Source of the DNA: Deltaproteobacteria bacterium
GTDB lineage: Bacteria; Myxococcota_A; JAADFL01
NCBI GenBank assembly: GCA_013152945.1
Contig: JAADFL010000142.1
Location: 1 to 6,161, forward strand
Reading direction: 5' to 3'
Length of the DNA: 6,161 nucleotides
Position 1 is the stretch's first letter. Each line of letters starts with the position of its first letter. The notes below the pieces were generated by a model. It made no database searches. It saw only the letters and a list, made by a program, of their open reading frames with translations, and was not told the DNA's origin. Below, in pieces: positions 124 to 5,911 of the stretch. The translations under genes were made by a program, and so were the position numbers.

Positions 124-1632
124 CTAGTTGCTTGGGGGTTCGATCCTGACCTGGGTCTGTTTGCCTGTGGAAATCTCTTTGGCGGTCACCTTGAGTACAC
201 CGTCTGCATCCAGTGAAAACATCACTTCTACACGTACCTCTCCGGCCGCTTTTCTTGGCAGCCCCTCCAGAAAGAATTCTCCCAATTGTCTGTTTTCCGA
301 TGCTATTGGAGATTCACCCTGAAAAACAGATAACCTCACAAAATCCTGGTTGTTTTCAACAGTTTCGAATATCTTGCTCTCCTGTGTCGGCACAGTCGTG
401 TTCCTTGGAATAACTACAGAGAACTTGCCGCCCGTGGTTTCTATACCCATTGACAAAGGCGTCACATCCAGGAGTATGCTTTCCTTCATCTCTCCGGACA
501 GAATTGCTCCCTGCAGGCAAGCACCGGCCGCAACCACTTCGTCCGGGTTAACGCCCTTTGTGGGCTTTTTTTTGAATATCTGTTCAACCTTGGCCTGCAC
601 TGCCGGAACCCTGGTCATGCCTCCTACAAGCACGATATCATGTACATCTTCGGGTTTGAGCTTGGCATCATCCAAAGCCTTGAATACCGGTTCATCCAGT
701 GCATCGAATAAGTCGGAGCAGAGTTCTACAAAGGTCTCACGTTCAAGCCTGTCGATTTTCAGGTGCTTGGGTCCGGATTCGTCTGCTGTGATGAAAGGGA
801 GGTTGATGTCACAGTGGTCCAGCGAAGACAACTCCTGTTTTGCATGTTCCGCAGCCTCTTTCAACCTTTGCAAGGCCATTGGATCTTGACGTAGATCCAG
901 CCCGGTTTCATTGCGAAAATTGTTTACAAGATAGTTTATCAGCCTCTCGTCGAAGTCTTCTCCACCCAGGAAGGTATCACCGGAAGTGGCAAGCACCTCG
1001 TATACACCCGAACTTATTTTTAAGATAGTGATATCGAAAGTTCCGCCACCGAGGTCGAATACTGCAATATTTGCATTCACATCCTTTTTGGTGCCGTACG
1101 CAAGGGCGGCTGCGGTTGGTTCGTTTATGATTCTCTTGACTTTGAGGCCGGCCTCTTGACCTGCAAGTATGGTTGCCTGTCTTTGGGCATCATCGAAATA
1201 GGCTGGTACTGTAATGACCGCTTCATCCACAGGCTCATCCAGGTAGTCTTCCGCCGCCTGTTTGAGCTTTTTCAGAATGTATGCGGAAATTTGGGAAGGG
1301 GTCATTACCTTCCCCTGTATCTGGATACATGCATTACCTTTCTCACCGGGAACGATATTGTATGGAGCCTTTTCCTTGAATAGTTCTATTTCCTTTGAAT
1401 TGAATCGCCTGCCAATAAGCCGCTTGGTCGCGAAGACCGTGTTTGCCGGGTTCGTGATGGCCTGTCTTTTTGCCAATCTACCGACCAATGGATCTCCGTC
1501 CTTTTGAAATGCCACCACTGATGGAGTAGTACGCTCCCCTTCAGAGTTGTGAATGATAACAGGCTGATCGTTTTCAGCTACAGCTACACAAGAATTCGTT
1601 GTCCCCAAATCTATTCCAATAACTTTACCCAT
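124..1632 (-). CDS. dnaK: Lidless DnaK/Hsp70-family chaperone
   Basis: ATP-dependent cytoplasmic Hsp70 of 502 residues; housekeeping DnaK is about 630-640. The nucleotide-binding domain spans about 1-383, with phosphate loops DLGTTNS (8-14) and DLGGGTFD (193-200), catalytic Lys70, the Pro143/Arg151 relay, [10 protein letters not shown] (171-180) and VGGMTRVP (336-343). The interdomain linker is LLDVTPLS (387-394). Arg167 and linker Asp389, matching the E. coli residues that dock a J-domain, are kept. The substrate-binding beta domain covers about 395-498. The protein then stops (IEPPSN), just where the alpha-helical lid would begin, and no lid-like sequence follows in any frame of the remaining 123 bases. 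ATG start at 1632; a GGGAGG ribosome site lies 14 bases upstream, which is longer than usual. The gene sits 187 bases downstream of a J-domain protein on the same strand, its likely partner. The symbol is given for family only: this is probably a specialised paralogue, not the housekeeping gene. Confidence 0.95.
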
Positions 1633-1646
1633 GTTGTTTCTATTTG

Positions 1647-1652
1647 CCTCCC
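1647..1652 (-). promoter_or_regulatory. Distant ribosome binding site of the lidless dnaK
   Basis: GGGAGG is the only strong Shine-Dalgarno match upstream of the ATG at 1632. The gap of 14 bases is longer than the usual 5-9, which may lower translation. The start itself is secure because [12 protein letters not shown] is the standard Hsp70 N-terminus. Confidence 0.5.
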
Positions 1653-1685
1653 ATGTTCATCCTTGTTCTGAACCAAGTTGATTGT

Positions 1686-1714
1686 ATATTATTAAAACAA
1701 ATATTGTTTGAAAA
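1686..1714 (-). promoter_or_regulatory. Possible sigma70-type promoter for the lidless dnaK
   Basis: On the minus strand TTTTCA (1714-1709) and TAATAT (1691-1686) are separated by 17 bases, in a very AT-rich stretch about 55 bases upstream of the ATG. The -35 match is only 4 of 6, so this is a weak call. If real, the Hsp70 can be transcribed separately from the J-domain gene. No CIRCE element (TTAGCACTC-N9-GAGTGCTAA) is seen, so there is no sign of HrcA-type heat-shock control. Confidence 0.3.
1695..1709. repeat. AT-rich palindrome inside the putative dnaK promoter
   Basis: Arms aaacaa (1695-1700) and ttgttt (1704-1709) are perfect inverted repeats around a 3-base centre. The palindrome lies in the spacer between the proposed -35 and -10 boxes, a common place for a repressor operator. 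In such AT-rich DNA a 6-bp arm can occur by chance. Confidence 0.35.
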
Positions 1715-1780
1715 GTCCTATTTGATTGTTTTTTTTCGAGGATAATGCATAACAAAAGAAACGTTTTTCCCAACAGAATC

Positions 1781-1807
1781 AACCATGATTTCATAAAAAG
1801 CATGGTT
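1781..1807. repeat. Inverted repeat AACCATG-N13-CATGGTT just after the J-domain gene
   Basis: Seven-base arms at 1781-1787 and 1801-1807 pair perfectly around a 13-base AT-rich loop, 13 bases beyond the stop codon of the J-domain gene. No U-run follows on the minus strand, so it is not a standard intrinsic terminator. It may be an mRNA-stabilising hairpin, a weak terminator or a protein-binding site. Confidence 0.4.
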
Positions 1808-1819
1808 TTGAAGCTCCAT

Positions 1820-3259
1820 CTAATCAGAGTCCGGTTTTTTCCTGAAAAATTTTGAAAGAATCCCGCCAGAAGGAGTGCCTCCCCTTTTTTTCGACCTTTC
1901 GGTTTTTTTCCCGGGCGATGCCTTGATGCTTTGTTTTCGTTGTGCAGCCCTTAATTCGGCATTTACATCCGGGTTACGGGGGTTGAGTGCCTTGCTCTTT
2001 TCGAAGAATTCCAGGGCCTTTTTAAGATCGCCTTCAATTTTGAATATCATACCCAAGTAATAAAGCGGTAGATAGTAGTCATCATCAAGCTTACAGGCCT
2101 TTTCAAGCAATGCCTTTGCCTCTCTTTTCTTGGAATGGTCTTCCATGAACATGGCCCAACCAAGCAATGCCTTGTACTCGGCGCTTTTCTTTTCGAGATA
2201 GGCTGCCCTGGCAAAGCATTGCGCAGCTCCTGCATAGTCTTTTTTCCGGAGCAATGCACGCCCCCTGACAGCCTCCTGAACCGGGTTGCCTCGAAAAGAA
2301 GAGCCCATAGCAGTTCGGCGTCTCGAAGTATCATTAGTGTCCTTGGTTCCGGATCGGGGAGAACCATGTTTTTTCAAAGGGCTGTCTTGCTTTTTATTCC
2401 GCTTTTCTTCCTTGATTGTATAAAGAGGAACAGTGTCACCTGTAGCTTTACCCTTATCGACACGTGATGGCCTTGGATGGATTTTCTTGCTGGGAGGCGG
2501 TTGCTTGGACCTTGATTGATTGTCTTTTGCTTTCCTGCCGGGCTTATGACCCAGGGCTATCTGTTGAATCGGGTTCGTTGTTCCGTCTTTTGTTGGTTCG
2601 ATGGGCGGTTTCTCTTTTGCCTTCTCCTTGATCGAATTAACCATATTGGCCGATCTTATTGCATCTTGCTTCAAACGTTCCACCGCCTTCTTGGTTGAGG
2701 CGAACAATGTATTTGTCAGCTCTTTGATTTCTTTGTCGTTGTAGCCTGCAAACCTGTCCGGGTGGTACCTTGGAATAAAGGTTTCCTTGAAAGCCCTGTC
2801 TATTTCTTCTGCCGATGCTTCGGAATTCAAATCGAGGACAGTCAGGATCTCTCTTGTTTGTACCTTGCCCAACAACCTTTTAAGACTCGTAACCACTTTG
2901 TCCACTTCAGGAGGGCGGATCAATGGCCAGGCTCCCTGACCTGTTTCTAGAACCTGTTTTATCTGTTCTCTGGTACTTTGTTTGATTGGAGTAATACTGA
3001 GAATGATCCCTGTGGCGGGATTATTGTTTGATAAGTTTTTACCATCCAGTATCTGGACTACTTTGCCATGCAGATCAAGCATGCCTTGCACTTTGCTTAT
3101 GGTAATTCGACTGGTTACATCCGAGCCTATGGTAATACCATCAGGATCGCATGGCAAAAACGCTATATTATTATTCAGTGCCTGACTAATGACTTCAGAG
3201 CCTCTCTCAAACGACTCAAAGCCAATAATAATCTGCTTTCTGGGCACAAGCACTCCCAC
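1820..3259 (-). CDS. J-domain co-chaperone with PilZ-like N-terminus and C-terminal TPRs
   Basis: A 479-residue cytoplasmic protein with no signal peptide or membrane segment. Residues about 8-107 resemble a PilZ-type beta-barrel (a GSDVTSRITI strand, LHGKVVQIL, then ATGIILSI and a final helix), but the RxxxR and D/NxSxxG c-di-GMP residues are not seen. Residues about 135-205 are a J-domain with HPD at 166-168. There is no Gly/Phe region or zinc finger, so it is a class C J-protein. Residues about 210-322 form a basic, Lys/Pro/Ser-rich, probably disordered linker. About 323-430 hold three TPR-like helix pairs (start near NPVQEA, EYKALLG and YLPLYYLG). The C-tail is strongly basic. It should stimulate the ATPase of an Hsp70, most simply the lidless one encoded next. 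The longest start is GTG at 3259; GTG at 3247 has a better placed GGGAG site. An in-frame stop lies just upstream, so no longer form exists. Confidence 0.85.
   Translation of the reverse strand: MGVLVPRKQIIIGFESFERGSEVISQALNNNIAFLPCDPDGITIGSDVTSRITISKVQGMLDLHGKVVQILDGKNLSNNNPATGIILSITPIKQSTREQIKQVLETGQGAWPLIRPPEVDKVVTSLKRLLGKVQTREILTVLDLNSEASAEEIDRAFKETFIPRYHPDRFAGYNDKEIKELTNTLFASTKKAVERLKQDAIRSANMVNSIKEKAKEKPPIEPTKDGTTNPIQQIALGHKPGRKAKDNQSRSKQPPPSKKIHPRPSRVDKGKATGDTVPLYTIKEEKRNKKQDSPLKKHGSPRSGTKDTNDTSRRRTAMGSSFRGNPVQEAVRGRALLRKKDYAGAAQCFARAAYLEKKSAEYKALLGWAMFMEDHSKKREAKALLEKACKLDDDYYLPLYYLGMIFKIEGDLKKALEFFEKSKALNPRNPDVNAELRAAQRKQSIKASPGKKTERSKKRGGTPSGGILSKFFRKKPDSD
3253..3257 (-). promoter_or_regulatory. 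Ribosome site favouring an alternative GTG start at 3247
   Basis: Three in-frame GTG codons open the J-domain gene (3259, 3253, 3247). GGGAG at 3257-3253 stands 5 bases before the GTG at 3247, a good spacing. The best site for the GTG at 3259 is AAGGGG, 17 bases upstream. The protein may therefore begin at 3247, four residues shorter. No ATG is available. Confidence 0.4.
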
Positions 3260-3325
3260 CCTATCTTCGAAACGTACCCCTTATTCCCCTTAATGGTGGT
3301 ATGATGCTTTTTTTGTCGGCCCCTG

Positions 3326-3526
3326 TCAAGATTCTTGCTTTCTTTTTCTCCGATAGAAAATGACGATGGTCAGACAATGGAATTCCCTGTCACTGCTTTG
3401 CAGCACTTCACGGTCCACTATTTCCATGTCAGGATTGTCCCGCTTCCACCTGGTGATGTCTTCGCCAAGAGCCTCTCTTTCACGTGCCTTGGTAGCCGAA
3501 AAAACCTTGCAACCTTCCCAACTCAC
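3326..3526 (-). CDS. Small uncharacterised protein (66 residues)
   Basis: I cannot name a family for this protein. It is soluble and charged, with no signal peptide or membrane segment. It begins with an amphipathic, Arg/Glu-rich stretch (ATKAREREALGEDITRW, residues 11-27). A short alternating region follows (MEIVDREV), then a distinctive QSSDREFHCLTIVIFYRR near the C-terminus that looks like a beta strand after a conserved-type motif. It is judged real because a GTG start at 3526 has a strong GGAGGG ribosome site 5 bases upstream, and because the composition is protein-like throughout. It ends 66 bases before the J-domain gene on the same strand with no clear terminator between, so it may be co-transcribed with it. 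The fold alternates helix then beta strands, but function is unknown. Confidence 0.65.
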   Translation of the reverse strand: MSWEGCKVFSATKAREREALGEDITRWKRDNPDMEIVDREVLQSSDREFHCLTIVIFYRRKRKQES

Positions 3527-3724: not shown

Positions 3725-5911
3725 TTACAGAAGATGGCAAAACAAAATAGAAAAATAGTAAACAATAAAAATTAACTGAAAAGCAGGACAGAAAAATTTG
3801 AAATGATCAATCTTCCGGGTTTGATTTGCCGCAGATATAGGTTTTCGGGTCATTCGGGTCGGAAGGTGTAAATACGCCGTATTGCTCCACTTGACCGTGC
3901 CGACAAGCCAGTGACAATTCCTCTTCTCCAGGATGTGGGTCTGCTCGTTTTGTTGTACCCCCTTGATGAATACCCTGACCTTGGCCATGGTCGAGCCCAG
4001 ACTGTAGTCCTCGTAGTAGGTCACCCAAATCCTGTACGTGTCATCACAAGGATGGGTGTGGCCGATATTTTCTGGCCCGTACCCTTCAACATCGTCTATG
4101 TCCAGGCTGGGATCATCAGACTTGTCGCCGGCCTTGCAATAATCGGGATGGGGGTTGAAGTAATGGCAGTCTCCGCCCGGATTCGTTGCCGTGGTGTCTC
4201 CGTATTTTGCCCCGGAACGAATATAGTGCAAGTCGACATCTGTCTTCGGGTGGTCCCAAACGAGTTGGGTTATGATAGCCTTCTTGGGATTTGCATTGAT
4301 GGTTACACACTTGTCGTTCTTGCATTCCGGATCGGATGTACATGCCCCGCCCTGCTCGCATATCTCGAGACACGGCTCGTACGTTCCCACCAGGTCCACG
4401 AAGAAGCTCGGCTGGGCTGCATTCGAGCACGAGTCCATGGCTGTTACAGCGCCCGGGTTGCACTCGGGGTTGAAGCCTGTGTGAGAGTCCATTGGGGCCT
4501 TTTTAAAGTACCACCTGTAGGTAATGGTCTTGCCGGACGGGCTGTGGCTGCCGGTTCCATCGAGCAGGACCGTGTCCAGGGGTTCGACTTCATCGATTTT
4601 CGGATCGGTCACGTCGACTACAGCTACCGGGCATTGGCCGCAGCTCCCGGACAGTGGCAGGTACGCGGACCTCGTATTGTTGTCGCCCAGATCATACATT
4701 ACTTCCACCCTGGCCTTGCGGTTCGCCTCCTGCTGCTGTGTGCAGGTCATGGTTGCCGTAAGCCATCCATCCGGATCGGCATCCGCATGTGATTTGAGGT
4801 ACTTCGGAAGGGCTGCAGGCGCATCCGGAGCTTCCCTGGTGGTAAAGTCGATTACCGCCATGTCGCTGCCTCCGCCTGCTCCCACTTTATCATAGGGCGG
4901 CCCAGGCCAACACAGTTGTTGCTGGCAGGTCATGCCATTGCCGCAGTCTTCATCTTTTGCACAGTCTTTCGTGCACCTGGCCACGTTCGCAGCGCCCATG
5001 AAGCACTTGTTGGCGCAAGCCGAATCCTCTGCAACCGGTTTTCCATCGGCATCGGGCGCCATGCAGAGCGAACCCAATCCCCCGCGTTTTTGAGCCTGCG
5101 GGTTTGCCGATGCGTCGTCGACGATTCTCATTCCTACCAGCCTTACCTGCGGGCAGTTGTCGGACAGCCGCATCTCGAATTTCTGCCCCAGGGTTCTGCC
5201 GGTTACGCTGTTTCCAAAGTCGTGATCAGCGGGTTTGAACTCGATGTTGCAGGATGGGCTGCCTATCAGATTTACGACCCAGGGATTTTCACTGTTCTTT
5301 TCTCCTACCAGGTCGGCCCGGTCCGGATCCTGGTTCTGGATTGTAAGCGTCCTGGAGCAACCGCTATGGAGCTTTGTATAAGCATAAGTCAGGATATAGT
5401 CTGCGTAACCACCGGACTGGAGCACAATGTAGGATTTAACGCCGGTTGGCCTGTCGCCTGCGCAATTACCGCCTGATTCATGCTGGTCGTCCAGGCACTC
5501 ACATTTATTGCTTGCCGGGGGACAAGGGCTTCCCTGGTAATCCTGGGGTGTTTCAAGACCGAAGATGCACGAGTCCATTCCAAGGCTGATGTCGTCTTTG
5601 GACGGAGCGGTAATCTCGAGGGGACCTTCACCCACATTGTAAAGTCTTAGTGTCAGCTTGGTCACCCGTTCCGGTTTGTCTGCGTTGGTGCTGAGCCCGG
5701 GGTCGGTGAAATTCGCATTTGTTGGATTGTTCTTGCCCGGCGGTGTTGAAGGCACCACACTACTCGGAGGAGGGCAAGTGCCTTCAGGGCATGCCTTGAC
5801 TTCTATGTCCGGGTAGGCGGAAAAGAAGTACTCGCTGCAGGACAGCCCAAACAACAGTATGGCGCCGATAAATGCAGATGTAGAAAGAAAATTCACCTTG
5901 CCCCGGGTCAT
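3725..5911 (-). CDS. Cysteine-rich lipoprotein with Hydin-like, PKD and DUF2135-like domains, frameshifted 3' end
   Basis: The reading frame as present encodes 728 residues. An N-terminal export signal (basic MTRGK, hydrophobic core 8-24, GLSC at 22-25) suggests a lipoprotein with Cys25 lipidated, though the lipobox is imperfect (Gly at -3). A Pro/Thr/Asn linker follows (about 41-80). Next come two Hydin/ASH-like beta domains (NVGEGPLEI near 92-100, then DFGNSVTG near 231-238), a Cys-rich module (about 283-334), a further beta region (350-425), a PKD domain (about 427-520, with LLDGTGSHSPSG) and a second short Cys-rich piece (514-535). The C-terminal domain (about 545-675) has TDVDLHYI and the acidic DDPSLDIDDVEGYGPENI, like DUF2135/YfaP-type domains. 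About 33 cysteines suggest many disulphides outside the cytoplasm. Likely role: cell-surface adhesion or structure, inferred. The ATG at 5911 is backed by a perfect AAGGAGGT. The last 51 residues (after Asn677) look spurious; see the frameshift entry. Confidence 0.85.
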   Translation of the reverse strand: MTRGKVNFLSTSAFIGAILLFGLSCSEYFFSAYPDIEVKACPEGTCPPPSSVVPSTPPGKNNPTNANFTDPGLSTNADKPERVTKLTLRLYNVGEGPLEITAPSKDDISLGMDSCIFGLETPQDYQGSPCPPASNKCECLDDQHESGGNCAGDRPTGVKSYIVLQSGGYADYILTYAYTKLHSGCSRTLTIQNQDPDRADLVGEKNSENPWVVNLIGSPSCNIEFKPADHDFGNSVTGRTLGQKFEMRLSDNCPQVRLVGMRIVDDASANPQAQKRGGLGSLCMAPDADGKPVAEDSACANKCFMGAANVARCTKDCAKDEDCGNGMTCQQQLCWPGPPYDKVGAGGGSDMAVIDFTTREAPDAPAALPKYLKSHADADPDGWLTATMTCTQQQEANRKARVEVMYDLGDNNTRSAYLPLSGSCGQCPVAVVDVTDPKIDEVEPLDTVLLDGTGSHSPSGKTITYRWYFKKAPMDSHTGFNPECNPGAVTAMDSCSNAAQPSFFVDLVGTYEPCLEICEQGGACTSDPECKNDKCVTINANPKKAIITQLVWDHPKTDVDLHYIRSGAKYGDTTATNPGGDCHYFNPHPDYCKAGDKSDDPSLDIDDVEGYGPENIGHTHPCDDTYRIWVTYYEDYSLGSTMAKVRVFIKGVQQNEQTHILEKRNCHWLVGTVKWSNTAYLHLPTRMTRKPISAANQTRKIDHFKFFCPAFQLIFIVYYFSILFCHLL
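3807..3881 (-). other. Displaced C-terminus of the lipoprotein after a frameshift
   Basis: From 3878 down to a TGA at 3807-3809, a different frame reads GVFTPSDPNDPKTYICGKS followed by NPED and stop. This continues the preceding VGTVKWSN sense, has ordinary codon use and ends in a polar tail. The frame that stays open instead runs into a basic, then hydrophobic AT-rich tail ending at 3725, which looks like translated intergenic DNA. Adding one base (or removing two) near 3879-3881 would restore a protein of about 701 residues. It may be a real mutation or a sequencing/assembly error; no slippery heptamer is seen to support programmed slippage. Confidence 0.7.

Follow-up and report, generated by a model that had tools for sequence, protein, structure and literature searches.

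The locus and its genes

We analysed a 6,161-nucleotide stretch of DNA (hereafter the window) from a Deltaproteobacteria bacterium of the Myxococcota_A lineage (GenBank assembly GCA_013152945.1, contig JAADFL010000142.1), in which two adjacent genes encode a J-domain protein, P0002, and an Hsp70 without a lid, P0001. These two proteins are a real, conserved pair that relatives possess as well, and for this reason their function is probably that of a specialised chaperone and not of a general folding machine. The window is the entire contig (C142) of a 4.84-Mb metagenome-assembled genome (MAG) that is 94% complete, and the closest genomes in our comparison, in which the named relatives were Kofleriaceae, Nannocystineae and other Myxococcota MAGs, have only the phylum in common with it. 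Below, genomes are designated G and families f, each followed by a number. All four genes of the window, encoding a 728-residue lipoprotein-like protein, a 66-residue protein, P0002 and P0001, lie on the minus strand (Table 1).

Table 1. Features of the chaperone locus, with positions counted from the first nucleotide of the window
Feature	Position	Strand	Evidence
P0001, lidless Hsp70, 502 residues	124..1632	-	Pfam HSP70, DnaK alignment, clade support
Asp389 codon of P0001 (E. coli DnaK D393, interdomain linker)	466..468	-	Alignment
Arg167 codon of P0001	1132..1134	-	Alignment
Intergenic gap from J to Hsp70 gene, 187 nt	1633..1819	-	
P0002, PilZ-like/J/TPR co-chaperone, 479 residues	1820..3259	-	Open reading frame, families, colinear alignment, AlphaFold2 model
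C-terminal tail of P0002, GGILSKFFRKKPDSD	1823..1867	-	Instance of conserved motif
TPR array, residues 326-447, seven helices	1919..2284	-	Pfam TPR_2 8.7e-10, AlphaFold2 helices
Disordered, basic, low-complexity linker from J domain to TPRs	2285..2620	-	pLDDT <50 over most of residues 221-321
J domain, residues 134-208	2636..2860	-	Pfam DnaJ 9e-4, family hidden Markov model, AlphaFold2 helices
HPD motif, P0002 residues 166-168	2756..2764	-	Direct sequence reading
PilZ-like domain, residues ~7-106	2942..3241	-	AlphaFold2, Foldseek, VIA-align
Sigma70-like site, TTGACA-17-CATCAT	3301..3329	-	Between the 66-residue and J genes
P0003, small conserved protein, 66 residues	3326..3526	-	Homologues elsewhere

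P0001 is a lidless Hsp70

P0001 has the parts expected of the Hsp70 superfamily, namely a nucleotide-binding domain (NBD) with its nucleotide motifs at approximately residues 1-384, the linker SILLD, of which LLD is invariant across the Hsp70 alignment, and the beta part of the substrate-binding domain (SBD), which continues to residue 502; there is no SBD-alpha lid. The Pfam HSP70 profile matched the protein with an E-value of 2.3e-207 (690 bits) but was covered from position 1 to 499 of 599 only, and in the alignment with E. coli DnaK the protein ends where SBD-beta ends. Removal of the lid by a frameshift or a contig edge was considered and rejected, as the relatives end at the same place: the C-termini of nine lidless relatives fall within ~30 residues of the point at which P0001 stops, and the missing lid is therefore ancestral. 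The first-pass annotation had called this protein a lidless Hsp70 and had listed Arg167 and Asp389 as retained, together with the HPD motif of the J-protein, and all of this was confirmed by the alignments and by direct reading of the sequence.

No Hsp70 that we found exceeds 59% identity to P0001. In the maximum-likelihood tree it clusters, with support of 99/96, with lidless Hsp70s of 513-532 residues from several Myxococcota families, and this clade is separate from the full-length DnaKs and from the branch of E. coli DnaK. Thus P0001 has neither the SBD-alpha lid nor the grouping with DnaK orthologues that mark a housekeeping DnaK, and since full-length DnaK-type copies are found on other contigs among the nine Hsp70s of the MAG, we conclude that it is not the housekeeping protein. 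There is a second lidless clade in families f5 and f10, whose members also have a J gene directly upstream, with a different N-terminal region.

P0002 joins a PilZ-like domain to a J domain and TPRs

From its N- to its C-terminus P0002 consists of a PilZ-like domain, a J domain with HPD motif, a disordered basic linker, an array of tetratricopeptide repeats (TPRs) and a short tail, and it is colinear over its full length with PilZ-J-TPR proteins of relatives. Its start is ambiguous, since translation could instead begin at a GTG that lies in frame a few codons further on. The J domain matched the family profile at 5e-26 (a profile that includes P0002 itself) and was modelled by AlphaFold2 with a predicted local distance difference test score (pLDDT) of 80-93. 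Its HPD motif, family match and predicted helices are those of a class C J-protein; neither the zinc-finger nor the C-terminal domain of class A and B J-proteins was found in P0002.

A Pfam search of P0002 gave no PilZ match and, for that reason, we relied on a family profile and on structure. For the latter we modelled the domain by itself, with 17 PilZ-J relatives, because a fold search with the whole protein was swamped by the TPRs. The resulting model (pLDDT about 79-85) has the beta-barrel fold of the PilZ superfamily: the top eight Foldseek matches were all PilZ structures (best E-value 9.9e-5), and VIA-align gave Z-scores of 8.6 to XC1028 (3dsg) and 8.2 to 4fou, relative to 5.7 for the best unrelated row. 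The best solved matches were the type IV pilus PilZ protein of Xanthomonas and XC1028. At the level of sequence the PilZ signal was suggestive, 11.8 bits compared with at most 7.5 in 2000 shuffles, but hhalign returned a P of no more than 0.03, while the equivalent domain of the relatives matched Pfam PilZ in 5 of 11 cases (best 1.9e-13). The label "PilZ-like", given originally from the letters of the sequence, is therefore upheld by the modelled structure.

The tail carries a motif of two hydrophobic residues, two mostly polar or basic residues and two further hydrophobic residues, and this pattern was present in 38 of 40 J-TPR tails of the family versus 17 of 170 control reading-frame ends. 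The tail resembles the targeting helix of MinD. Its reading as an amphipathic helix from the hydrophobic moment was rejected, as this moment is ordinary relative to controls.

The pair is conserved and its contact residues share one fate

A J gene lay directly upstream of the lidless Hsp70 gene at eight of nine test loci, the ninth being ended by a contig edge, whereas none of 22 full-length DnaK genes was preceded in this way (in 16 of them the J gene was downstream). In the named Myxococcota, at all 15 PilZ-J loci on which the contig continues, in Kofleriaceae, Nannocystineae and other Myxococcota MAGs, the Hsp70 gene begins -4 to 17 nt after the PilZ-J-TPR gene. On the tree the window pair stands beside these PilZ-J pairs and the degenerate pairs described below (support 91/91). 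What differs between groups is the N-terminal sensor region of the J-protein, which is PilZ in the window, f20 and f27, receiver-like plus DUF4388 in f7, DUF4388 in genome G051 of f17 and absent at one locus of genome G045 (G045:C210). As adjacency and strict gene order recur in relatives, we can exclude that the neighbourhood of the J and Hsp70 genes is peculiar to the window.

Whether the window pair is co-transcribed is uncertain because of the 187-nt gap, in which we found no promoter-like or terminator-like site on the minus strand. The sigma70-like site upstream of the J gene is a weakly indicated candidate promoter of the pair, such sites being present in the window at chance level overall.

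In DnaK, Arg167 is contacted by the Asp of the J-domain HPD motif (PMC8215388, PMC7289447). Among 53 adjacent J/Hsp70 pairs, 47 retain both HPD and Arg167, six have neither, and there are no mixed pairs; the degenerate ones combine HPA with Ala, HPN with Ala or HPS with Ser. The window pair is intact. Genome G045 and four f27 genomes (G084, G285, G297 and G303) contain both intact and degenerate pairs, and in these genomes the loss is limited to the matched pair. HPD and Arg167 were thus lost together in genomes that still hold intact pairs, which argues for a dependence of each partner on the other. Together with the conserved adjacency and order and the phylum-wide lidless clade, this pattern supports the earlier suggestion of a working J/Hsp70 pair. 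Directly 3′ of the HPS/Ser167 pair of G045:C210 is a gene (L124, 3018-3923, minus strand) for an FHA-GGDEF protein, its domains having been read by eye.

Proposed function and alternatives

Our preferred interpretation, to which we assign a probability of roughly 70%, is that the two genes, J and Hsp70, specify a dedicated chaperone system distinct from the housekeeping DnaK. In such a system the J domain would trigger ATP hydrolysis on the adjacent Hsp70, perhaps exclusively, via the HPD-Arg167 contact. An Hsp70 without a lid should bind and release its clients fast, as lid-deleted DnaK does and, if exchange is fast, the choice of client and its residence would therefore rest on the J-protein, which would bring the Hsp70 to one class of client or to a specific site. 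The TPRs may be where a client or partner is held, and the PilZ-like domain, having lost its cyclic di-GMP (c-di-GMP) motifs, could be a protein-protein adaptor like the PilZ protein of type IV pili. The conserved tail might tether P0002 to the inner membrane, much as DjlC of E. coli is tail-anchored, or dock into the Hsp70, a guess in view of its ordinary helical moment. The pair possibly acts at the inner membrane or at a machine of the cell surface. Type IV pili are one candidate, because the nearest PilZ folds regulate them, because the DnaK1/DnaJ3 pair acts there and because the MAG encodes the pilus protein PilB.

Several observations weigh against a dedicated system. The six degenerate pairs belong to one branch and represent a single event of joint loss on the tree, and we rejected their use as independent evidence. 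The J domain scores low in Pfam (19.7 bits, the cut-off being 27.8) and contains one inserted residue as well as a proline in helix II, immediately before HPD, and the hydrophobic moment of the tail is not above that of controls. The gap in the window is longer than in the PilZ-J pairs, whose genes almost abut, and two of three f44 genomes carry the Hsp70 without an upstream J gene. Finally, when 24 PilZ genes of Myxococcus xanthus, among which four encode DnaK or DnaJ domains, were deleted, motility or development changed only for plpA, pixA, pixB and pkn1 (PMC8316039).

Is the pair instead a regulator of motility or exopolysaccharide, equivalent to SglK and StkA of Myxococcus or to DnaK1/DnaJ3 of Nostoc? 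We regard this as somewhat unlikely. The cognate partners DnaK1 and DnaJ3 have been linked to polysaccharide and to the motors of type IV pili (PMC9239167), the nearest PilZ structures are pilus regulators, PilB is present in the MAG, and a giant zinc-ribbon/TPR gene stands upstream of the pair in f7 and f17; however, that gene is missing from the window, which has no motility gene either. SglK and StkA, proposed as parallels in the first-pass annotation, do resemble P0001 as non-housekeeping Hsp70 homologues of Myxococcota, but SglK belongs to the DnaK type (PRK00290) and can rescue the growth of E. coli mutated in dnaK (PMC8265645), which sets it apart from P0001 and its separate lidless clade. 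The parallel is thus weak, and it leaves the tie to motility and surface polysaccharide conjectural.

It is unlikely that P0002 is a general class C co-chaperone of the housekeeping DnaK and P0001 an independent holdase, the two being neighbours through shared regulation only. The HPD/Arg167 contact is generic and retained by DnaK too, and the gap between the genes is long, yet strict order and adjacency across families, and the joint loss of both residues in one lineage that still has intact pairs, favour dedicated partners.

It is distinctly unlikely that the chaperone is switched by its PilZ-like domain acting as a functional c-di-GMP sensor, which the signalling role suggested earlier would imply. 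The domain has the PilZ fold, portions of the motif survive in some relatives (RIKLR and DLSRS in G045, and a canonical-looking domain at locus L191), and the FHA-GGDEF gene adjoins the G045:C210 pair. However, inspection of the alignment found neither RxxxR nor D/NxSxxG in the domain of P0002, and c-di-GMP binding by the nearest structures, the type IV pilus PilZ and XC1028, is reported as absent or trivial (PMC8389850; PDB title).

That all three genes, including that of the 66-residue protein, form one module, as was first proposed from their common strand and close spacing, is very improbable, and we rejected it: the 66-residue protein is a genuine gene product, and 8 of the 56 other relatives encode proteins homologous to it (56-69% identity), but at none of the nine homologous loci was there a J or Hsp70 gene within ~1.5 kb, so that it falls outside the conserved chaperone pair.

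Comparison with known systems

HscC of E. coli keeps its lid domain, unlike P0001, and its partner DjlC, unlike P0002, is not known to have a PilZ or TPR domain. HscC and DjlB/DjlC resemble the window pair in that a specialised Hsp70 has its own class C J-proteins encoded nearby; these are tail-anchored in the membrane, which suggests their site of action, and the NBD of HscC has a deletion at 76-101 (PMC8215388), a gap that P0001 does not have. DnaK1/DnaJ3 of Nostoc punctiforme is likewise a dedicated second pair whose action is distinct from that of the housekeeping system. Its members are linked by their co-expression and co-occurrence, in an account that does not mention a PilZ-J fusion (PMC9239167). 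In M. xanthus CsdK1 and CsdK2, as in the window, PilZ is coupled to an Hsp70 system in Myxococcota, and the PilZ domain of CsdK1 is also without half of the c-di-GMP motif (PMC10313047). However, in CsdK the PilZ domain is fused to the Hsp70 chain, whereas here it is on the J partner and P0001 consists of Hsp70 regions only. The nearest solved folds, type IV pilus PilZ (XAC1133) and XC1028 of Xanthomonas, are non-canonical PilZ proteins that, unlike P0002, are small and stand-alone, without J domain or TPRs; PilZ bridges PilB and FimX (PMC8389850).

Dedicated J/Hsp70 pairs were therefore already known (HscA/HscB, HscC/DjlC and DnaK1/DnaJ3; PMC8215388, PMC9239167), as were PilZ-DnaK or PilZ-DnaJ proteins of M. 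xanthus (PMC10313047). In the open-licence papers that we searched we found no description of a lidless Hsp70 combined with a J-TPR partner, swapped adaptors and a doubly lost switch, and no account of natural lidless bacterial Hsp70s.

Neighbouring and related loci

The 728-residue lipoprotein-like gene (3725-5911, minus strand) has an odd C-terminus, and an overlapping open reading frame at 3807-4028 supplies a plausible natural ending, QYGVFTPSDPNDPKTYICGKSNPED, which suggests a frameshift near 3,880. Positions 1-60 are a C/A-rich low-complexity repeat at the contig end, likely an assembly break.

In f7 and f17 a giant TPR protein of 1245-1471 residues, often with an MJ0042 zinc ribbon or GYF domain, is encoded directly upstream of the J/Hsp70 pair (L117, L118, L123, L125, L126) and has no counterpart in the window. 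Genome G000 holds several further arrangements. At C205 80115-84077 (L113) a 1000-residue protein has PilZ ahead of a C-terminal Hsp70, with single-domain PilZ genes on either side, and resembles the M. xanthus CsdK/CdbS theme; at C156 5277-9851 (L115) there are two tandem PilZ-Hsp70 fusions, one of them with three PilZ domains, adjoining a further 585-residue protein with HPD. The same genome encodes a second PilZ-J protein, of 362 residues and with a clear Pfam PilZ match (C57 1522-2328; L072, L210), and, at C27 6739-8920 (L112), a 534-residue Hsp70 followed ~40 nt downstream by a gene for a 178-residue J-protein, a second likely dedicated pair with gene order reversed.

Implications

We tentatively suggest, as a possibility that we would place short of even odds, that Myxococcota have a family of chaperones with interchangeable sensors, in which a lidless Hsp70 works with its own J-TPR protein and the N-terminal adaptor of the latter (PilZ-like, DUF4388/PATAN or others) is swapped. 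In one branch both partners have lost their half of the HPD-Arg167 switch, which would imply that such a pair functions independently of the canonical trigger, and the window pair would be a deep member with intact switch near that branch. The system shows a branch of Hsp70s that has given up its lid and kept a private J partner, with an adaptor domain that differs by lineage, and the pairs without HPD and Arg167 offer a natural experiment on the purpose of the conserved contact between J-protein and Hsp70. Such a family may account for part of the large Myxococcota repertoire of Hsp70 and PilZ proteins, most members of which are without a known role.

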